From positions 1-40,672 of the IMG/VR virus record IMGVR_UViG_3300001341_000005: DNA of 40,672 nucleotides; one strand, given 5' to 3'. Shown here piece after piece: positions 3,026 to 39,390 of this stretch. Position 1 is the first letter of the stretch. Every line of letters begins with the position of its first letter. Both the position numbers and the translations under genes were made by a program. The notes beneath the pieces are model-generated. The model did not search any database. It worked only from the letters and a program-made list of their open reading frames with translations, and was not told the DNA's origin. The stretch comes from a virus.

Positions 3026-5562
3026 ACTATCGCGACTTCCTCGAAGCCAAAATGACTTTGGCCGAACCGACTGGTTTCCACATTGATCCGGCCGACGTCA
3101 ATCCGAACCTGGCGCCGCACTGTCGGGCGATCGTTCCATGGGCGCTTTCGGGCGGCTGCCGTGCGATCTTTGCGGCCTTCGGACTGCACAAGACCTCGAT
3201 CCAGCTTGAAATCATGCGCCATGTCGCCCGGTGTCACGGCGGCCGGCAGCTTATTGTCGCTCCGCTTGGCGTAACGCACGAATTCATGGCGGAAACCGAT
3301 GAGCGGTTCCGGGACCAATTTGCCGTCACGCCGCGGTTCATTCGGCGCGACGCCGAAATCGACGGCGACGGGCTTTATCTGACGAACTATGAAAGCGTGC
3401 GCGACGGCCGGCTGGATCCCGGCCTGTTCAACGCGGCGAGTCTCGATGAGGCGGCGGTGCTGCGGTCGTTCGGATCGAAGACCTATCAGGAATTCCTGCC
3501 CCTGTTCGAGGGCGTGCCCTATCGTTTCGTCGCGACCGCGACGCCGTCGCCGAACCGGATCAAGGAACTGATCCATTATGCCGGCTTTCTGGGCGTGATG
3601 GATACCGGCCAGGCATTGACACGGTTTTTCCAGCGTAATTCCAAAAAGGCCGGCGACCTTCAGCTTTATCCGCACAAGGAAGATGAATTCTGGCTTTGGG
3701 TGCATTCCTGGGCGATCTTTCTGCAGAAGCCGTCGGACCTCGGGTTCAGCGACGATGGATATGAACTGCCGGCTGTGACGGTGAACTGGCACGAAGTGCC
3801 GAGCGACCATTCCACGGCCGGGGCGGATCGGGACGGGCAGGGGCGGTTGTTTCGCAATGCCGCGCTCGGGGTTTCGCAGGCCGCGGCGGAAAAACGGTCG
3901 AGCCTTGCCGCCCGGGTCCGGAAGCTTATGGAAATCCGTGCCGAGGGTCCTGACGCGCACCGGATCATCTGGCACGATCTTGAAGCCGAGCGCGAGGCGA
4001 TCGCCGAAGCCGTGCCGGATGCCCGCGCGATCTACGGGGCGCAGGACCAGGCCGTCAACGAACGAAACGCCGTCGACTTCAAATATGGACGCTTTGCCGA
4101 ACTGGCGACGAAGCCGGAAATGTCCGGCGTCGGCTGCAATTTTCAGCGCCATTGTGCGTGGTCGGTGTTTCTTGGCATCGGCTTCAAGTTCCATGATTTC
4201 ATCCAGGCGGTCCACCGCACCGTCCGGTTCGGCCAGACCCGGCCCTGCAGACTCGACATCATCCATTCCGAAGCCGAACGCGAGGTCCGCCGGAACCTGG
4301 AAACCAAATGGGCCGAACATGACGCGATGATGGCGCGCATGACCGCGATCATCCGCCGGTACGGGCTGGGCCGGTTGCCGGTTGCGGAAGTCACCGGCCG
4401 GTCGATCGGGGTGGAGCGAAAGGCAGTCGCCGGCAATCGGTTCCGCGCGGTCAACAATGATTGCGTCGACGAAACCGCGCGCATGGATCCCGACAGCGTC
4501 GACCTGGTCGTGACCTCGATCCCGTTTTCCAATCACTATGAATATACCGATTCCTACAACGATTTCGGGCACACCGACGACAACGATCATTTCTGGCGCC
4601 AGATGGACTTCCTGACGCCGGAACTCTTGCGGATCCTCAATCCCGGTCGGCTCGCCTGCATTCACGTCAAGGACCGGGTTTTGTTCGGCGCCGTCACGGG
4701 CGCCGGCGCGCCGACCATATCGCCATTCCATGCCGAAGCGATCCTGCACGGCCGTCGCCACGAGTTCGACTATGCCGGCATGATCACGATCGTGACCGAC
4801 GTGGTGCGAGAGAACAATCAGACATACCGGCTGGGCTATTCCGAAATGTGCAAGGACGGATCGAAAGCCGGGGTCGGCTGTCCGGAATATGTGCTTTTGT
4901 TCCGCAAGCCGCAGAGCGATCGGGGCCGCGGCTATGCCGACGTTCCGGTCGTACGCGACAAACAGGACTATTCCCTGGCGCGATGGCAGATCGATGCGCA
5001 TGCCTATTGGCGATCGGCCGGGGATCGGCTCGTGCCGCCGGCGGAATTCGCCGAACGGCTCAAGACGCTCGGCATGTCCGATATCACCGCGATCGTTAAA
5101 CGGTTCAGTCTGGCTGAAATCTACGACCACGATTATCTCGTGCGGCTGGGCGAGGAACTGGGCGACCGCCTGCCGAAGACGTTCATGGCGCTTGCGCCGG
5201 CATCGGCGCATCCTGACGTCTGGCACGACGTGGCGCGCATGAAGACGCTGAACGGCGACCAGGTCCGGCGCAATGTCGAGATGCACATCTGCCCGCTTCA
5301 GTTCGACATCGTCGACCGGCTGATCGAACGCTTTTCGATGCCCGGAGAGACCGTCTACGACCCGTTCGCCGGATTGATGACCGTGCCGCTGCGCGCCGTC
5401 CTGAAGGGGCGGATCGGCCTCGGCTGCGAGCTGCACGAGGGCTATTTCCGCGACGGCGTTCACTATCTCACCGCGGCCGAAGCGGAGATCGAGACGCCGA
5501 GCCTGTTCGATTTGATGGATCCGGGGGAGGGGGCGCCGATGCGGGAGGTTGCCAATGTTTGA
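3022..5562 (+). CDS. SNF2-like helicase fused to a beta-class DNA N4/N6 methyltransferase
   Basis: An 846-residue fusion. The N-terminal half resembles an SF2/SNF2 ATPase: a Walker A-like FGLHKTS at 53-59, LDEAAVL (motif II) at 141-147, TATPSPN (motif III) at 172-178 and a motif VI-like stretch starting QAVHRTVRFGQTRP at about 395. The C-terminal half is an amino-methyltransferase with permuted order: catalytic TSIPFSNHYEY near 498 in place of DPPY, then the AdoMet-binding DPFAGLMTVPLRA near 780. It probably methylates exocyclic amines of phage DNA during or after replication. It overlaps the upstream and downstream genes by four and eight bases. The Walker A is degenerate (GLHKT for GxGKT), so ATPase activity is uncertain. 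Fusions of this type are known in phages. Confidence 0.88.
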   Translation: MNYRDFLEAKMTLAEPTGFHIDPADVNPNLAPHCRAIVPWALSGGCRAIFAAFGLHKTSIQLEIMRHVARCHGGRQLIVAPLGVTHEFMAETDERFRDQFAVTPRFIRRDAEIDGDGLYLTNYESVRDGRLDPGLFNAASLDEAAVLRSFGSKTYQEFLPLFEGVPYRFVATATPSPNRIKELIHYAGFLGVMDTGQALTRFFQRNSKKAGDLQLYPHKEDEFWLWVHSWAIFLQKPSDLGFSDDGYELPAVTVNWHEVPSDHSTAGADRDGQGRLFRNAALGVSQAAAEKRSSLAARVRKLMEIRAEGPDAHRIIWHDLEAEREAIAEAVPDARAIYGAQDQAVNERNAVDFKYGRFAELATKPEMSGVGCNFQRHCAWSVFLGIGFKFHDFIQAVHRTVRFGQTRPCRLDIIHSEAEREVRRNLETKWAEHDAMMARMTAIIRRYGLGRLPVAEVTGRSIGVERKAVAGNRFRAVNNDCVDETARMDPDSVDLVVTSIPFSNHYEYTDSYNDFGHTDDNDHFWRQMDFLTPELLRILNPGRLACIHVKDRVLFGAVTGAGAPTISPFHAEAILHGRRHEFDYAGMITIVTDVVRENNQTYRLGYSEMCKDGSKAGVGCPEYVLLFRKPQSDRGRGYADVPVVRDKQDYSLARWQIDAHAYWRSAGDRLVPPAEFAERLKTLGMSDITAIVKRFSLAEIYDHDYLVRLGEELGDRLPKTFMALAPASAHPDVWHDVARMKTLNGDQVRRNVEMHICPLQFDIVDRLIERFSMPGETVYDPFAGLMTVPLRAVLKGRIGLGCELHEGYFRDGVHYLTAAEAEIETPSLFDLMDPGEGAPMREVANV

Positions 5563-8710: not shown

Positions 8711-8980
8711 GTCCTACCTAGGTTGGACAGGTGATAAGAGGTTGGACGGGATTAAAGCGTTTGGTTTCAAAGGTTTGGCCTACCTGTCCAACCTGTCCAA
8801 CCTTTTTCGGGTGGTCCGTGCGCACGCGGGCGCGAAAGGCGATTGACCCCTCCAGCCCTGTTCGTTTTGGCGCTGAAAGGTCGGACAGGTTGGACTTTGG
8901 TTGCAAGCGTTTGAAAGCGTTGAGGAATATGTGTCCTACCTTTGATTTTCAAGGTTGGACAAGGTTGGACAGGTTGGACA
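8711..8980. repeat. GGTTGGAC iteron cluster, candidate replication origin
   Basis: This non-coding stretch after the helicase holds six exact GGTTGGAC copies (8721, 8740, 8888, 8953, 8963, 8972), two exact inverse copies (8786-8793, 8795-8802) and near copies (GGTCGGAC at 8879; GTCCTACC at 8711 and 8933). Three copies at 8953-8979 are spaced 9-10 bases, close to one helical turn. Two of the near-inverse copies make inverted repeats with forward copies (8711-8728 and 8933-8960). Iterons beside primase and helicase genes usually mark an origin. A role as a regulator-binding region is the main alternative. Confidence 0.6.
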
Positions 8981-9002
8981 TCGGCGGTTCTAGCAGGCGG
9001 AA

Positions 9003-33675: not shown

Positions 33676-33833
33676 CGCGGCATTCCTTTCTGTCCAAAGA
33701 GACAGGGAGACCGGAGTGGTTGCAACGCTCCGATCACGGGGTCATAGCAAAACAGCCCCGCCGACGAAAAGGCAATTATCGCCGTCCCTGCCGCTGCTAG
33801 TCGACAGCGGGACGATTGATACACTGGAAACCA

Positions 33834-34043
33834 ATGGAGTCTATACGCTGTGCCGGCTGCGACCGTCTGTTGTTCCGTCAGGAACCGGGCGCTCTTGCCG
33901 GAACCCTTGAACTGAAATGCCCGCGCTGCGGTGCGATGAACATCTTCAGGCCTTCAGAGCCTCTACCGGAACGCCATTCCGAGCGTCGCAAGGACAATCG
34001 ATATGGCGGATTCGCGCGTCGAGGCCACTTCCCCAAAAAATAA
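33834..34043 (+). CDS. com: Com-like zinc-ribbon protein (Mu Com family)
   Basis: A 69-residue protein: CAGC near residue 6 and CPRC near 30 make a zinc ribbon, followed by NIFRPSEPLPERHSERR and a basic tail. This is the pattern of phage Mu Com, which binds mom mRNA and exposes its ribosome site. ATG 33834 follows GGAAA and is preferred to ATG 33816. The gene overlaps the downstream C5 methyltransferase start by 41 bases, so it sits where Com sits relative to mom. Its target here is therefore probably the methyltransferase mRNA; this is an inference. Confidence 0.8.
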   Translation: MESIRCAGCDRLLFRQEPGALAGTLELKCPRCGAMNIFRPSEPLPERHSERRKDNRYGGFARRGHFPKK

Positions 34044-34830
34044 GGCGCGCCCGCCCGATCGTCCCAAACTGTCGGTCCTGGATCTGTTTTCCGGGATCGG
34101 CGGCTTTTCGCTGGGACTGGAACGGACGGGCGGCTTCAGGACGTCCGCGTTCTGCGAGATCGACGGGTTCGCCCGCTCGATCCTGCGCCGGCATTGGCCG
34201 GCGGTCCCGATCTTTGATGACGTTGTCAAACTGAGGGGCCGGGATGTCGGACCAATTGACGTTGCTTGCGGGGGATTCCCCTGCCAGGATATCTCGTATG
34301 CCGGCCACGGTGCCGGACTTAAGGGTCAGCGAAGCGGGCTCTGGTCCGAAATCGCCCGTCTTGTTGGCGAGCTTCGACCCCGCTACGTGGTCGTGGAGAA
34401 CGTGTCAGCGCTGCTTGTTAGAGGACTGGACACGGTTCTCGGCGACCTGGCCGCGCTCGGGTATGATGCGGAATGGCATTGCATCGGAGCTGGAAACATT
34501 GGCCTACCGCACGGCCGGGATCGGATCTGGATTGTTGCCTACCCCATTGGCCAGCGAACCGATCGGCTGGTCACGCGTGAGCAAATCCGATCCGCGGCGC
34601 TCGATATCCAGAACGGTCGGGCGAGGTGGGCAGATCAGATTTACCTTTTTCCCTCAGTGGATCGGATGGTCGCTAACACAGACGGTCGAATTGGCCGAAA
34701 CGATCATGGGCTACCCAAAGGGCTGGACCGGCTGAAGGCGGTCGGCAACGCGATCGTGCCGCAGATCGCGGAGTTGATCGGGCGGGGGATTTTGAAAGCG
34801 GATGGACGCACGGCCGCCGGCGCTTTATAG
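34003..34830 (+). CDS. DNA cytosine-C5 methyltransferase downstream of Com
   Basis: A 275-residue enzyme with the motif order intact: DLFSGIGGFSLGLERTG (AdoMet), GGFPCQDIS (catalytic Cys), VVENVSAL, GLPHGRDRIW and the C-terminal LKAVGNAIVPQIAELIGRG. The target-recognition region between the fourth and last motifs is short. ATG 34003 has AAGGA (33990-33994) eight bases upstream, inside com. CGCCAT (33972-33977) can pair with the start-region ATGGCG (34003-34008), which could hide the start codon. It likely protects phage DNA. Another protein-like frame runs through it from 34244. Confidence 0.92.
   Translation: MADSRVEATSPKNKARPPDRPKLSVLDLFSGIGGFSLGLERTGGFRTSAFCEIDGFARSILRRHWPAVPIFDDVVKLRGRDVGPIDVACGGFPCQDISYAGHGAGLKGQRSGLWSEIARLVGELRPRYVVVENVSALLVRGLDTVLGDLAALGYDAEWHCIGAGNIGLPHGRDRIWIVAYPIGQRTDRLVTREQIRSAALDIQNGRARWADQIYLFPSVDRMVANTDGRIGRNDHGLPKGLDRLKAVGNAIVPQIAELIGRGILKADGRTAAGAL
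34244..34735 (+). CDS. Overlapping ORF inside the C5 methyltransferase, protein-like in a second frame
   Basis: A 163-codon frame, +1 relative to the methyltransferase, with ATG 34244 preceded by GAGGGG (34233-34238) at five bases spacing. Its product contains WRTCQRCLLEDWTRFSATW, then PRSGMMRNG and a final MGYPKGWTG. From memory I associate WPRSGM and LMGxPxGWT motifs with a family of phage ORFs found beside C5 methyltransferases. It could be a real overprinted gene or a chance open frame; I cannot test it here. Confidence 0.35.
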   Translation: MSDQLTLLAGDSPARISRMPATVPDLRVSEAGSGPKSPVLLASFDPATWSWRTCQRCLLEDWTRFSATWPRSGMMRNGIASELETLAYRTAGIGSGLLPTPLASEPIGWSRVSKSDPRRSISRTVGRGGQIRFTFFPQWIGWSLTQTVELAETIMGYPKGWTG

Positions 34831-34893: not shown

Positions 34894-35355
34894 CTATTTT
34901 CCAGAGTGCGCGTCGCCGCTCTTTTTCAGATATTCGTTCACGGCGTTTTCGACCTGTGCCGAAACAGGACGACCGCCGCGCATCATCGAAGCGACGCGGG
35001 CCGAACTTCCGCGATTGAAGCCGATGGCTTCTGCGAATGCGGACACGCTCAAGCCGGATCGTTTCCATGCCCGTGTTAGTGTTGCCGGCGACATGCGCGG
35101 GTTGAGGTTCCAATCATGCAGTTCGCCGGTTTGTGCGGAGTATGCCGGCGAATGCGGCCCCGTATCCTGCAGAAGAACCCAGCCTGAAGGGCGACGCTGG
35201 ACATAGTCGTGCTTCATCAGGCCGGACATGTAGACCCAGACACTGGATTCCTCGCTGCCTGACAATTCCATCATTTGCTCGACCCCGACCGGCCCAGTTG
35301 CCGATCGGAGTGCGTTCCACATTTTCTGGCGGCCGCCGCCGGATCGTCTGATCAT
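34894..35355 (-). CDS. HTH-type regulator-like protein
   Basis: A 153-residue protein with two likely DNA-binding parts. The N-terminal VGVEQMMELSGSEESSVWVY and following helix look like a winged-helix/HTH. The C-terminal LSVSAFAEAIGFNRGSSARV is a lambda repressor-like HTH. It is the last gene of a leftward set that starts at the divergent promoter region near 37290. Dual HTH architecture suggests a regulator of the accessory genes. Function is not established. Confidence 0.6.
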   Translation of the reverse strand: MIRRSGGGRQKMWNALRSATGPVGVEQMMELSGSEESSVWVYMSGLMKHDYVQRRPSGWVLLQDTGPHSPAYSAQTGELHDWNLNPRMSPATLTRAWKRSGLSVSAFAEAIGFNRGSSARVASMMRGGRPVSAQVENAVNEYLKKSGDAHSGK

Positions 35356-35370
35356 CGATCTAAACCGTTC

Positions 35371-35715
35371 CTATGCGTTGATACAATCGAGAATTTCCTG
35401 TTCGTTGTAGAACCGGAGGACGCCTGAATGCTTCGATTGGTGCATGAACGCCACGCTGTTTGTCGTCCCGCGAAGGCGATCCAGTTTTTCGGCAATATCC
35501 ATTATGGCTTCACGATGTGCCGGGTCTGACTCCCAACGACAAAAATTGTTGGTGTCGACCAATTTGTAATCGTCAATTCGGATGCTGGGGCAGCCGGTCT
35601 TGTTGTCCTTTGGGACATCGACCCGCTGAATGAGCAGACCCTTGTGATAGGCGCGCAGCACCTTCGCGGCAGGATGATCTTCGTGAACGGTATAGTCGAT
35701 GGATTGCATGATCAT
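35371..35715 (-). CDS. Small protein of unknown function, leftward accessory operon
   Basis: A 114-residue protein that I do not recognise. It is mixed alpha/beta: a beta-like start (SIDYTVHEDHPAAKVLRAYH), a basic middle (LIQRVDVPKDNKTG) and a helical REAIMDIAEKLDRLRG. TAGGAG lies eight bases before the first ATG (35715). It is followed by a 15-base gap to the HTH gene. A promoter-like TTGAAT-N16-TACATA lies upstream at 35762-35789. Confidence 0.55.
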   Translation of the reverse strand: MIMQSIDYTVHEDHPAAKVLRAYHKGLLIQRVDVPKDNKTGCPSIRIDDYKLVDTNNFCRWESDPAHREAIMDIAEKLDRLRGTTNSVAFMHQSKHSGVLRFYNEQEILDCINA

Positions 35716-35761
35716 GGTTTCTTTCTCCTAAGAGCGGCCCGTAGGGCGTTGCAATAATTGA

Positions 35762-35789
35762 TATGTAGCACCTTGGAAAAGTAATTCAA
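35762..35789 (-). promoter_or_regulatory. Candidate internal promoter for the leftward accessory genes
   Basis: On the minus strand TTGAAT (plus 35784-35789) is followed after 16 bases by TACATA (plus 35762-35767). It would transcribe the last two leftward genes. The inverted repeat CCTTG/CAAGG overlaps the -35. Matches are moderate and spacing is slightly short. Confidence 0.3.
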
Positions 35790-35798
35790 GGTCACTCG

Positions 35799-36056
35799 CT
35801 ATCTATTATTCGTTTTCCACGGCGGCGGCGGCATATTCGGATAGGTCTTGCGGATGAACAGCCCATAACAAGCCGCCTCGATCTTCGCGTCGCAGCCTCC
35901 GGTTTTCCATTTCTTGATCGACAGGGGGTGCACGTCGAGGGCCTTCGACGCATCGGTGTCGAACCGAAATCCCATCGCGGCCATCCATTCCTGGAATTCC
36001 TCCGCTGTCAGCCCCTTTTCGGCGCTGACAGCGTCCTTGTCGTCATTATCCGCCAT
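35799..36056 (-). CDS. Small HTH-like protein
   Basis: An 85-residue protein starting MADNDDKDAVSAEKG (ATG 36056, with GAGGGGAC just upstream on the minus strand); a longer open frame further upstream is not needed. The middle (LTAEEFQEWMAAMG and TDASKALDVHPLSIKKWK) is a helix-turn-helix of XRE type, and the tail is Pro/Lys-rich. It is likely a DNA-binding accessory regulator of the leftward operon. Confidence 0.6.
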   Translation of the reverse strand: MADNDDKDAVSAEKGLTAEEFQEWMAAMGFRFDTDASKALDVHPLSIKKWKTGGCDAKIEAACYGLFIRKTYPNMPPPPWKTNNR

Positions 36057-36063
36057 AGTCCCC

Positions 36064-36369
36064 TCACACCATAACCGATTGGAATTCGGCCCAGATTTCA
36101 GCAACGACCCCTTTGTCGGATGCCGGCTTGACGGTTTCGTTCGCCTTGCCGGCATGGCTGATTTCCATGCCGTCGACAAGTTTGTTTTTCATGAAGATGA
36201 TGCTGCAATTGTCGGCTTGTGTGAGGGCGTCCCATGCCTTCGCCAGGGATCGTCCATTGTATACCGGCGTCACGTCGCGGCCGGGCTTTGAGACATGATA
36301 GACGTTGGTGGTCCATCCTTCGTCCATCATCATGGTCTGGATCAATTGATAGCCAAGTATCGAGTCCAT
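36064..36369 (-). CDS. Small protein of unknown function, leftward accessory operon
   Basis: A 101-residue protein (MDSILGYQLIQTMMMDEGW). TAGGAG lies eight bases before its ATG. It is beta-rich in the N-terminal half (NVYHVSKPGRDVTPVYNGRS) and helical later. No recognised motif or signal peptide. It ends seven bases before the next leftward gene. Confidence 0.55.
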   Translation of the reverse strand: MDSILGYQLIQTMMMDEGWTTNVYHVSKPGRDVTPVYNGRSLAKAWDALTQADNCSIIFMKNKLVDGMEISHAGKANETVKPASDKGVVAEIWAEFQSVMV

Positions 36370-36379
36370 TGCCTGTCTC

Positions 36380-36769
36380 CTATGTGTTTCTTTTTTTCAA
36401 AATGGCCATACGCACATCGCCGACCTTCCCGCAAACTTCACCGTTGCGGCGAATAATGTCGTCCTTCCTTGGAACCTGGACTTTGACCGTCTTGCCGTCA
36501 TGTCCGAAATACGCCCGAATTTCTGCAGCAGTCACGTCCGGCGGGTCCTGTTTTACCGTTGCGGGGTCAGGAAAGCGTAGTCCCTTATTGTAAAGGCAAA
36601 AACCCGCACCGTCGGACCGTCTTGCGCGATGCCAGCCGGGACCGAGGTCTTTCGCAGGATCCCCGTATCGGTCGTGATCCTCGGTGTTGATCCACATCAG
36701 TTCCCATTTGTATGTCCCGTCCGGCATTGTGATGCGGAATTCAAACGGGGTGTTGTGCTTGAGGGTCAT
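36380..36769 (-). CDS. Small protein of unknown function, leftward accessory operon
   Basis: A 129-residue protein beginning MTLKHNTPFEFRITM. The central KWELMWINTEDHDRYGDPAK is Trp/His-rich, and FPDPATVKQDPPDVTAAEIR with the Lys/Arg-rich VKVQVPRKDDIIRRNG follows. ATG 36769 has AGGGA upstream. An upstream extension is open but overlaps the neighbouring gene. I cannot name it; it may bind nucleic acid given its basic C-terminal region, but this is a weak inference. Confidence 0.55.
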   Translation of the reverse strand: MTLKHNTPFEFRITMPDGTYKWELMWINTEDHDRYGDPAKDLGPGWHRARRSDGAGFCLYNKGLRFPDPATVKQDPPDVTAAEIRAYFGHDGKTVKVQVPRKDDIIRRNGEVCGKVGDVRMAILKKRNT

Positions 36770-36783
36770 CGTTCTGTTTCCCT

Positions 36784-37014
36784 TTATGGCTTGATCAGGG
36801 TTCGGGCATAATCCACGGCGTTCATGCCCTTCGGAACGTGGTAAGCATGGCCGGAAATCGTCCACCATTCGCCGGTTTCGGTGTCTTCCCAGACGACCTT
36901 GATGATGCCGTTCATGTTCGCCTGAATTGCAAGGGTGGCGCCATCGTCACCAGGATCGCGACACAGAACGGACCATCCCTTGGGATCGAGGACTTCGGTT
37001 TGTTCGATAAACAT
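36784..37014 (-). CDS. Small protein of unknown function, leftward accessory operon
   Basis: A 76-residue protein beginning MFIEQTEVLDPKGWSV. It has a beta-like centre (NMNGIIKVVWEDTETGEWW) and no recognised motif. ATG 37014 has GAAGGG upstream at about nine bases. It is the second gene of the leftward operon and follows the first by 17 bases. Confidence 0.55.
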   Translation of the reverse strand: MFIEQTEVLDPKGWSVLCRDPGDDGATLAIQANMNGIIKVVWEDTETGEWWTISGHAYHVPKGMNAVDYARTLIKP

Positions 37015-37031
37015 AATGAATGACCCTTCGA

Positions 37032-37244
37032 TTAGAATTTGGGCGCCGCGGCGTAGTGGAAATTGAAGCGGTTTTTGCCGCATTTGCGGGCGATGACGAT
37101 TTGACGGCTTCCGGAGTCCGAATAGCTGACGCCATGCCAGCTTTCGACGATCTGTTTAGGGGTTCTGCGCATTCCGAGCGCGATGAACATCTCGCGGGCC
37201 TGGCCCAGGCTGTCGAAATCCAAGCTGTGGTTCTGGTCAATCAT
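37032..37244 (-). CDS. First gene of the leftward accessory operon, unknown function
   Basis: A 70-residue protein (MIDQNHSLDFDSLGQAREMF). ATG 37244 is chosen because AAGGAG lies seven bases upstream and a TTG before it adds nothing. It has a helical start and a basic, Cys-containing end (ARKCGKNRFNFHYA). Its ribosome site and upstream leader are part of a 38-bp inverted repeat shared with the first rightward gene. Confidence 0.55.
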   Translation of the reverse strand: MIDQNHSLDFDSLGQAREMFIALGMRRTPKQIVESWHGVSYSDSGSRQIVIARKCGKNRFNFHYAAAPKF

Positions 37245-37291
37245 CAAGCATCTCCTTGTCAGGTGGGCTCCGGTGCCCTGTTGATGAACCT

Positions 37292-37319
37292 AATTTATAT
37301 ATTAATATGAAAAATTCAA
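37292..37319 (-). promoter_or_regulatory. Candidate leftward promoter of the accessory operon
   Basis: On the minus strand TTGAAT (plus 37314-37319) is followed after 16 bases by TAAATT (plus 37292-37297). The AT-rich surroundings allow other choices, so the exact site is uncertain, but some leftward promoter must lie here to express the genes beyond 37244. Confidence 0.4.
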
Positions 37320-37352
37320 GATAAAAAATATAAAAATATATAAAAATGGAGA

Positions 37353-37380
37353 TTGAAATAAGGGCCGATGGCCCTATATA
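37353..37380 (+). promoter_or_regulatory. Rightward promoter with an operator palindrome
   Basis: TTGAAA (37353-37358) is followed after 16 bases by TATATA (37375-37380). Between them AGGGCC-GAT-GGCCCT (37361-37375) is a perfect inverted repeat that fills the spacer, an ideal site for a repressor. It would drive the DnaJ-domain gene. Confidence 0.55.
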
Positions 37381-37429
37381 TAAAGCATCGACAGGGCACT
37401 GGAGCCCACCTGACAAGGAGATGTTCGAT

Positions 37430-37930
37430 ATGAAGAAGTCAGACGCATTGTCCATCCTGGACCTGACCGATGAAGTCACTGAAGCCGACGTCAAAAAGGC
37501 TTATCTGGCCGCGGTCAAGAAATACCATCCCGACGTCAATCCGGCCGGCGAAGAAATGATGAAGCTGGTCAACGCCGCATTCGAAGCCCTGAAGGGTTTC
37601 GAGGGCGATTGTGAAGATGCCGGCGAGGCACAGGCCGATTACGGCGTCGCCCTCAACAAAGCCCTGAACGCAATCATCGCCATTGCGGATCTGGAAATCG
37701 AGATCTGCGGTGCGTGGATCTGGGTCGGCGGCGAAACCTTCGCCTACAAGGATGTACTGAGGGGCGCGGGTTTCAAGTGGGCGAAGGCCAAACGCAAATG
37801 GCATTTCCGCCCCGCCAACTGGAAATCGCGGTCGCGCGGCGGCGTATCCATGGAAGACATCCGCGGCAGGTACGGCAGCGTCCGGCCGTCCCGCCCGCAA
37901 CGCGATGAACTGGAAGGGAATGCGGCATGA
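37430..37930 (+). CDS. DnaJ-domain protein
   Basis: A 166-residue protein. Residues about 7-45 form a J domain with the HPD tripeptide (KKYHPDVNP), which would stimulate a DnaK-type chaperone. The C-terminal part (about 103-150) carries the domain GAWIWVGGETFAYKDVLRGA and KWAKAKRKWHFRPANWKS, a combination I recall from mobile-element J-proteins. ATG 37430 is chosen because AAGGAG is nine bases upstream, while ATG 37421 directly abuts it. A host chaperone may be recruited for replication or regulation. Confidence 0.8.
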   Translation: MKKSDALSILDLTDEVTEADVKKAYLAAVKKYHPDVNPAGEEMMKLVNAAFEALKGFEGDCEDAGEAQADYGVALNKALNAIIAIADLEIEICGAWIWVGGETFAYKDVLRGAGFKWAKAKRKWHFRPANWKSRSRGGVSMEDIRGRYGSVRPSRPQRDELEGNAA

Positions 37931-38583
37931 GCGCCGCAGACCTTCTTGCCATCGTCCAGCCCGTCGCCGAACACATGTTCGGCGACGGTGTCGAGGTGGA
38001 AGAATTGCATTCCTATTGCGTCACCGTCCGGCATCCGAGCGAACCGGTTTCGCTGTCCTTTCGCAATCCGACCTATCCCGAAGCCATGACAAAGCGCCTC
38101 GTGATCACGGCTGACCTTCCCCGCACCGTGAGGGGATCATATGCGCACCTGTGTTACTACATGCCGCGGCTGGAAAGTGGCGGCCTTGCGCAATCGCCGA
38201 AGCGAACAATTGCAATCGCGCGCATGATTGCCGACCCGAAGCGGATCGCGGCGGAGATCCATCGCCATGTCGTCGGCCCGGCGATCGAGCCGGCCCGCAA
38301 GGGGGTCAAGGCGATCGCAAACGAACATTATCAAAAGCGCTGCCTGGAAGACGCAACCCGCCGCATTGCCGATTTGCTGGCCGGCCGGGCTTACATTCCG
38401 CAGGACGGCCGGGATACATTCACCGCGTCGGGCCGAATCGGCGATCTGAACGTGTCGGTCAAGACGGGTAGGGCGGTTACGACACAAATGCAGATAACCG
38501 CCGGCATGGATGTCCTGGAAGACTTGACGAAATACCTGGTCGCCCGTGAGCGGCGCCGCAACAAAAGGGACGATCGGTCATGA
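37927..38583 (+). CDS. Unknown protein, rightward accessory operon
   Basis: A 218-residue protein overlapping the DnaJ-domain gene by four bases (ATGA). It is helical in large parts, with a likely beta region (ELHSYCVTVRHPSEPVSLSF) and a final basic tail (VARERRRNKRDDRS). I recognise no motif. Its coupling to the J-protein suggests a shared task. It overlaps the next start by four bases. Confidence 0.6.
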   Translation: MSAADLLAIVQPVAEHMFGDGVEVEELHSYCVTVRHPSEPVSLSFRNPTYPEAMTKRLVITADLPRTVRGSYAHLCYYMPRLESGGLAQSPKRTIAIARMIADPKRIAAEIHRHVVGPAIEPARKGVKAIANEHYQKRCLEDATRRIADLLAGRAYIPQDGRDTFTASGRIGDLNVSVKTGRAVTTQMQITAGMDVLEDLTKYLVARERRRNKRDDRS

Positions 38584-38831
38584 CCGACAAGCTGGAACGA
38601 CACAAACGGGACCGCGACACATTCAAGGCGCGTAAGCGCGAGCTGGGCCTGTCGGACAATCAAATCGGCAGAGCCCTGAATGTTGATCCCAGAACGATCC
38701 GTCGATGGTTGGCGGATCCGGAAACGACCGACACGGCCAGGCCACCGAACCCGATCGCGCTGCGGGTGCTGGATTATTTCGTCAAACGAGGGGGGATCCC
38801 GTCAGATTGGCCGACGGCCGAAGACGGGTAG
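38580..38831 (+). CDS. Small HTH regulator-like protein
   Basis: An 83-residue protein with an HTH (LGLSDNQIGRALNVDPRTIRR) near residues 22-42 and a basic start (MTDKLERHKRDRDTFKARK). It overlaps the preceding stop by four bases and could be the repressor that acts at the palindrome near the shared promoter. That pairing is a guess based on proximity. Confidence 0.65.
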   Translation: MTDKLERHKRDRDTFKARKRELGLSDNQIGRALNVDPRTIRRWLADPETTDTARPPNPIALRVLDYFVKRGGIPSDWPTAEDG

Positions 38832-38868
38832 GCTTTACATTTGATCCCGTTTTGTTCATGTCTTCTGG

Positions 38869-39087
38869 ATGAAAAAGCAGCCGGTTGTCGTCGAGACGTT
38901 GGGGGATTTGAAGCGAAGCGGGATCGATCTGTATATCGCGTGCGACAACGGCCTGTGCCACCACCCGGGCGGGTTTCGGCGGGAGGAACTGATTGCGATG
39001 TTCGGTCCGGACAAGCCGTATCGAAATCTTCGGTACAAGTGTAAGAAGTGCGGCTTCAAGGCCAGTGGGCGGCTGGTGACGTTTTGA
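38869..39087 (+). CDS. Small zinc-ribbon-like protein
   Basis: A 72-residue protein with CDNGLCHH and CKKCGFK, two metal-binding pairs about 30 residues apart, and a basic end (KASGRLVTF). No ribosome site is obvious before ATG 38869. Phage proteins of this style are common near integration ends. It is the last recognisable phage gene before the attachment site. Confidence 0.6.
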   Translation: MKKQPVVVETLGDLKRSGIDLYIACDNGLCHHPGGFRREELIAMFGPDKPYRNLRYKCKKCGFKASGRLVTF

Positions 39088-39173: not shown

Positions 39174-39194
39174 CGAGTCCTCTTCACCGCACCA
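39174..39194 (+). other. Candidate right attachment site at a tRNA 3' end
   Basis: From 39174 the sequence reads CGAGTCCTCTTCACCGCACC and then A, which fits the T-loop, T-stem and acceptor 3' half of a tRNA ending CCA at 39192-39194. The acceptor strand TCACCGC and discriminator A suggest tRNA-Leu. The 5' half of the tRNA is absent, as expected where phage DNA replaces it at one junction. Core length is uncertain. Confidence 0.55.
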
Positions 39195-39332
39195 TTCTGT
39201 ATCTCACGGCCGCAGGCCTCCGACGGGGCGGGCTGACCGCCGGGGCGTCCGCTTGGACGCCATGGTGCCGGTTCCAGGTCACTCCTCTCACCTGCACCAT
39301 TCTGTATCTCGCGGCCGCTGGCCTACGACGGG
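39174..39332. repeat. Imperfect direct repeat of the tRNA 3' end and its downstream flank
   Basis: The segment from about 39174 to 39226 recurs in altered form from about 39281 to 39332; both share ACCATTCTGTATCTC, then CGGCCGC and a following GGCCT(A/C)CGACGGG. The second copy keeps a CACC-T-GCACCA tRNA-like end. It may be a footprint of earlier integration or of tRNA duplication. The remaining bases up to 39390 show no gene. Confidence 0.5.
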
Positions 39333-39390
39333 TCAAATTGATCACCCGGGCGACCGCGTAAACGCCTCGTTGCAGTTCCTAATCGCGACA

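Follow-up and report, generated by a model that had tools for sequence, protein, structure and literature searches.

A probable structured 5′ leader RNA in two head-to-head copies between divergent operons of an alphaproteobacterial-type phage

The window analysed in this work is the whole 40,672-base virus record IMGVR_UViG_3300001341_000005, which belongs to an alphaproteobacterial-type tailed phage with a terminase closest to that of Rhizobium phage PPF1 (63%). Two operons diverge within it from the two arms of an inverted repeat, and the locus has the following features.

34894-37014, minus strand: remainder of the left operon, small proteins without assigned function, the last of which (34894-35355) is HTH regulator-like
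37032-37244, minus strand: first left-operon gene, a 70-aa protein of no known family with coding-like third-position G+C
37243-37286, minus strand: left leader, the second copy (40/44) of the element, inverted, its end overlapping the left gene's start codon (ATG 37244-37242)
37287-37385, no strand: A+T-rich region (21% G+C) holding both candidate promoters, whose positions come from consensus only
37292-37319, minus strand: weak candidate left promoter by consensus, TTGAAT-N16-TAAATT, without a G+C-rich palindrome
37353-37382, plus strand: candidate right promoter, TTGAAA-N16/18-TATATA
37361-37375, no strand: palindrome AGGGCC-GAT-GGCCCT in the right promoter spacer, a candidate HTH operator; related cassettes are palindromic there too
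37386-37429, plus strand: right leader, a 44-nt predicted three-way-junction element with AAGGAG, ending one base before ATG 37430
37430-37930, plus strand: first right-operon gene, a J-domain protein (Pfam PF00226, 5.7e-10)
37927-38583, plus strand: right-operon gene for a 218-aa protein with no family match
38580-38831, plus strand: third right-operon gene, an HTH regulator of the phrog_14076 family with homologues in operons behind other leaders

The J-domain protein family occurs in more than 2,000 mostly conjugative enterobacterial plasmids, and one Kordiimonas genome carries three copies of it.

The two arms (37243-37286 and 37386-37429) are inverted copies matching at 40 of 44 positions, and within the inner 38 nt (37249-37286 and 37386-37423) they differ at just two leader positions, 5 and 15. 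By far, this is the strongest local inverted repeat of the window, the runner-up reaching 31/44, and the identity beyond the arms is at chance level (12/40 inside and 6/40 outside). The 99 bp separating the arms have 21% G+C, compared with 60% window-wide, and AAGGAG lies in both arms, a few bases 5′ of where each gene has its first ATG (37244, minus strand; 37430, plus strand). The initial annotation had described a 38-bp inverted repeat with two mismatches, which is exact and can be extended to 44 nt with four mismatches; its further statements, that the repeat flanks an AT-rich region and contains the ribosome sites of both first genes, are likewise borne out by the G+C values and by the AAGGAG in each arm.

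The leader motif was found nowhere else in the window, nor in another record of this phage, which overlaps the window up to position 37014 and stops there. This record, IMGVR_UViG_3300001473_000098 (L083-L085), is 100% identical to the window over 2-37014, ends 229 bp before the inverted repeat, and continues 14.6 kb further left up to an integrase-like gene. A terminase-based search for relatives retrieved only this near-identical record, ending before the repeat, and no similar repeat separates divergent genes in the related phages PPF1, AmM-1 and RR1-A. A 91-nt direct repeat (39178-39373, 76% identical, spacing 105) lies near the right end of the window record, just outside the phage genes.

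Transcription of the right operon is predicted from consensus to start at about 37386-37389, ahead of ATG 37430, and that of the left operon at about 37286, from a weaker promoter-like sequence, ahead of ATG 37244. A stricter promoter scan found no promoter, and therefore these placements follow from consensus matches. With these predicted starts, each arm would coincide almost exactly with a complete 5′ leader that begins near the transcription start and reaches the start codon. The left and right promoters are unrelated in sequence, the match being confined to the leaders.

Three further copies of the leader were found, each of them single, in two bacterial genomes (G776 and G1331) and in Paracoccus phage Pkon1, and each is followed by a different small gene and then by a homologous HTH gene (phrog_14076). 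A covariance model built from the two arms (R1) and searched in about 1,120 genomes yielded one outstanding site, in G776 (order of Pseudovibrio axinellae), with 32.3 bits and an E of 1.1e-4 per genome, which over about 1,120 genomes is singly not significant. The G776 locus aligns with the right side of the window over 73 nt, comprising promoter palindrome, −10, leader and ATG, with a score of 51 against a shuffled maximum of 29. All nine substitutions in its leader are either unpaired or fall in two compensated pairs (2/44, A-U to G-C; 26/31, U-A to A-U; simulated p 8e-4), and a 3-nt deletion takes out optional CA/UG pairs. The leader there is followed by a 58-aa coiled-coil/membrane-like protein and then, as the second gene downstream, by an HTH protein of 65 aa sharing 51% identity with the right-operon HTH of the window. 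A family-wide search with another model (R2) led to G1331 (E 0.0019 over 329 genomes, singly not significant), where the order is promoter, leader, 64-aa protein and HTH homologue, with phage-lysis-like genes nearby; the promoter, at the position homologous to that of the window's right side, is TTGACA-N17-TATATC with the spacer palindrome AGGCAC-AAT-GTGCCT. The G776 and G1331 matches are counted because of their promoter, start codon and HTH context. Pkon1 was found through its HTH protein alone in a phage search, and its leader, upstream of p72-p71 and behind the homologously placed promoter TTGACA-N17-TAAATC with the palindrome TAGCGCC-ATT-GGCGCTA, was scored at E 9e-8 by R2, a model trained without Pkon1. 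Pkon1 p72 and the small protein of G776 have phrog_6330 in common, and their HTH proteins are both phrog_14076. The phrog_14076 gene is in the operon of the leader on the right side of the window and in G776, G1331 and Pkon1, the exception being the left copy of the window.

Other routes to relatives gave nothing comparable. None of the J-domain homologues in viral contigs and genomes has the repeat or the leader; one of them, in Aquimarina (L022, about 4857-4980), has a long inverted repeat of unrelated sequence just upstream. Exact and relaxed DNA patterns found no homologue in IMG/VR, where one pattern match (L095), at the end of an open frame and without a repeat, was judged to be due to chance, and searches through the left gene and the 218-aa protein gave no useful relatives. 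The other inspected covariance-model matches (L100-L102, L109, L110, L116-L121 and L123-L129), which lack the promoter palindrome and the HTH gene, were set aside. Similar-looking leaders (AGGUGAGGC..GUGCC..CC....GGAG) were seen in Vibrio phage IKEMa6-1 (L146, about 1236-1285), where the leader folds as a three-way junction, and in Aeromonas phage 56 (L147, about 1241-1290); both look-alikes lie 5′ of a small gene and a phrog_14076-like HTH gene.

The HTH-linked promoters have in common a palindrome between −35 and −10, constant in place and varying in sequence, which is present on the right side of the window and in G776, G1331 and Pkon1, and absent from the left promoter of the window. Palindromes at the same place also occur in a Tritonibacter plasmid with phage-like genes (TAGGGGCATTTGCCCCTA) and in Ruegeria phage DSS3-P1 (TAGGGTCCAAATGGACCTA). 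G1331, Pkon1 and Tritonibacter have strongly symmetric palindromes (8-9 pairs), the remaining promoters less symmetric ones, and at least 7 pairs were found at 1.5% of the TTGA[CA]A control sites; for G776, the palindrome is AGGGC/GCCCT as read from the sequence, because the scored stretch cut it short. This spacer palindrome, at the right promoter and in related cassettes, is a likely operator of the HTH protein. The putative operator and the leader are separable, since no leader accompanies the HTH relatives in G458, G003 and the Ruegeria phages and the hairpin leader of Tritonibacter is a different one.

The conserved predicted fold is a three-way junction formed by an outer stem running to the start codon, a GGGC-N6-GCCC hairpin, and a CC(U/A)-loop-(A/U)GG hairpin that contains the Shine-Dalgarno (SD) GG, paired in all five leaders. 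The two arms differ at positions 5, 15, 39 and 41, of which 5 pairs with 41 in the predicted fold (G-C in the right arm, A-U in the left) and 15 and 39 are unpaired; as 1-4% of chance substitution sets are equally consistent with the pairing, this compensation is suggestive only. Among the five leaders from four loci, 96.7% of cells are in standard pairs, four pairs have two-sided compensatory changes, and almost no pair is broken. The covariation score of 0.300 was reached in none of 500 shuffles, and sliding the 3′ side lowered it to at most 0.092. The alignment (A9) of these leaders, only five from four loci, was fitted to the model and is thereby biased towards the structure; however, when the bare sequences are folded, the minimum-energy structure is this three-way junction in 5/5 leaders, whereas only 2% of random 48-mers from the window form any three-way junction. 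The GGGC/GCCC helix is invariant in all five and therefore neither supports nor opposes pairing. The fold energies are unexceptional (z −1.2 to −1.9), and occlusion of the SD, being ordinary for this phage, was rejected as evidence by itself. No Rfam family matched at gathering score, and the Rfam miRNA matches, far below cut-off, reflect the giant hairpin of the entire inverted repeat. A CsrA/Rsm target was rejected because a loop GGA is not conserved (the upstream hairpin loops are ACUGGA, ACCGGA, AAUGAA, AAUAGA and AAUGAA).

Based on these findings, we propose that the inverted repeat probably, though by no means certainly, represents a structured 5′ leader RNA of a mobile phage control cassette, present twice in head-to-head orientation. 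The leader is best read, from comparative sequence evidence, as a structured element that controls translation within an autoregulated phage cassette and that was copied onto a second accessory operon. In such a cassette, the HTH protein would repress the palindromic promoter and thereby autoregulate transcription, while the leader would act after transcription, on translation, by opening or closing around the ribosome site, a switch that could be driven by an RNA-binding factor or by the ribosome itself. In this prophage, the leader would have been placed, without the operator palindrome, before the divergent accessory operon; because the palindrome is only at the right promoter, the left operon seems to have gained the leader without the operator, and therefore both operons would share translational control while their transcription would be controlled separately. 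The initial annotation had suggested that both mRNAs begin with the same leader, a possible shared control target, and this view is supported and strengthened by the single leader at three other loci, the compensatory base changes and the linked regulator gene.

The arms could instead act as DNA, with the GGGC-N6-GCCC just 3′ of each start being a second operator of the HTH repressor, so that one protein controls both promoters. The invariance of the GGGC/GCCC core in 5/5 leaders would fit an operator inside the leader; this core is similar to the spacer palindrome of the right promoter, and at each of the four loci the leader is accompanied by a linked HTH gene. However, this explanation does not account for the fact that all 44 nt as far as the start codon are conserved, or for the compensatory changes in the outer stem and in the SD hairpin, and some HTH homologues exist without the leader. 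Moreover, the spacer palindrome differs among phages while the leader core is constant, and therefore one protein specificity would not fit both; we regard the DNA operator as unlikely. It is also rather unlikely that the left copy is simply a good ribosome-binding leader gained by inverted duplication, with no shared regulatory role across the operons. The phage has only two copies, and their 91% identity is compatible with fairly recent copying, but the similarity begins and ends with the leader, one compensated pair accounts for two of the four arm differences, and the leader is conserved in other phages without any duplication.

The initial annotation had offered, as an alternative, a recombination site that can invert the promoters; inversion of this 99-bp segment would amount to phase variation. 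The long, nearly perfect arms around a promoter region would suit such a site, and the second assembly of the phage stops 229 bp short of the repeat, at window 37014. Against it, the homologous leaders elsewhere are single, the similarity ends at the leader boundaries, and each side has its own promoter-like sequence, the two being different. A scan of the flanking genes (34894-39087) recognised no recombinase family, the integrase-like gene of the related record is located at its distant end, and no record in the other orientation was found, the one other record of the phage ending before the repeat. Promoter inversion is thus not supported, and we consider it highly improbable. Invertons, or invertible promoters, resemble the present locus in having inverted repeats on both sides of a promoter region; in contrast, two diverging promoters lie between the repeats here, the repeats are predicted functional leaders, and neither an adjacent recombinase gene nor an alternative orientation was seen.

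In phage Mu, a structured leader controlled by Com provides translational control of the accessory gene mom. The window likewise has a structured leader at phage accessory genes and encodes a Com-like zinc ribbon (PF10122, 3e-8), the gene of which overlaps a C5 DNA methyltransferase gene (33816-34830) in an arrangement like Mu com-mom. However, the present leader is at two other operons and its relatives are HTH-linked; because the Com-linked methyltransferase gene has no leader motif upstream, a role of the Com-like protein at the leaders gains no support from the placement of the motif. Autoregulated phage HTH repressor operons (phrog_14076 and phrog_7950) share with the window a small HTH protein in a probably self-controlled operon and the promoter palindrome, whereas the present cassette also includes a conserved structured leader, which was apparently copied by itself to another operon.

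Among published ideas, the closest is that of the Start-Associated Sequences (SAS/ESAS) of Cluster K mycobacteriophages, which are phage-specific repeats at ribosome sites with function not established; the SAS, GGGATAGGAGCCC, is 13 bp long, directly precedes the start and occurs 11-19 times per genome (PMC3203893). Both are phage-specific repeats containing the ribosome site of several unrelated non-structural genes, and GGGATAGGAGCCC resembles GGGCACYGGAGCCC. In contrast, the SAS itself is the ribosome site, while the present element has its true SD 15 nt further on, is 44 nt long, forms a predicted three-way junction and is linked to an HTH regulator; with two copies of this different element, the window falls outside the SAS/ESAS. 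A literature search for three-way-junction leaders in such phages, mostly outside subscription journals, retrieved nothing, and the word "promoter" is absent from the main text of the Pkon1 paper (PMC6536676); no published description of this leader family was found, and it may be previously undescribed.

In a more speculative extension, which we hold to be doubtful, the leader would be a transferable RNA operator that a phage protein recognises in trans, so that phages could build translational regulons by copying the leader before new accessory genes. The trans-acting factor would possibly be the phrog_14076 HTH protein, which would then act on the RNA hairpin as well as on the DNA palindrome, and, if this is true, the look-alike leaders of the Vibrio and Aeromonas phages would extend the RNA-operator system beyond Alphaproteobacteria. 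The accessory genes of a prophage need to be quieted or tuned without disturbing lysogeny, and a compact promoter-leader module that can be copied and brings its own regulator would offer a general solution. The head-to-head copy would represent the reuse of the leader as a separable part, and one leader before two operons provides a testable handle on phage translational regulons.

Elsewhere in the window, direct and inverted arrays of the 9-bp iteron GGTTGGACA lie at 8720-8990, between a primase/helicase-like gene and the next gene, and these arrays look like an iteron replication origin; Aurantimonas phage AmM-1 carries a different 9-bp iteron, GGGAGGCTA, at the same position after its primase (L097, 44310-44551).
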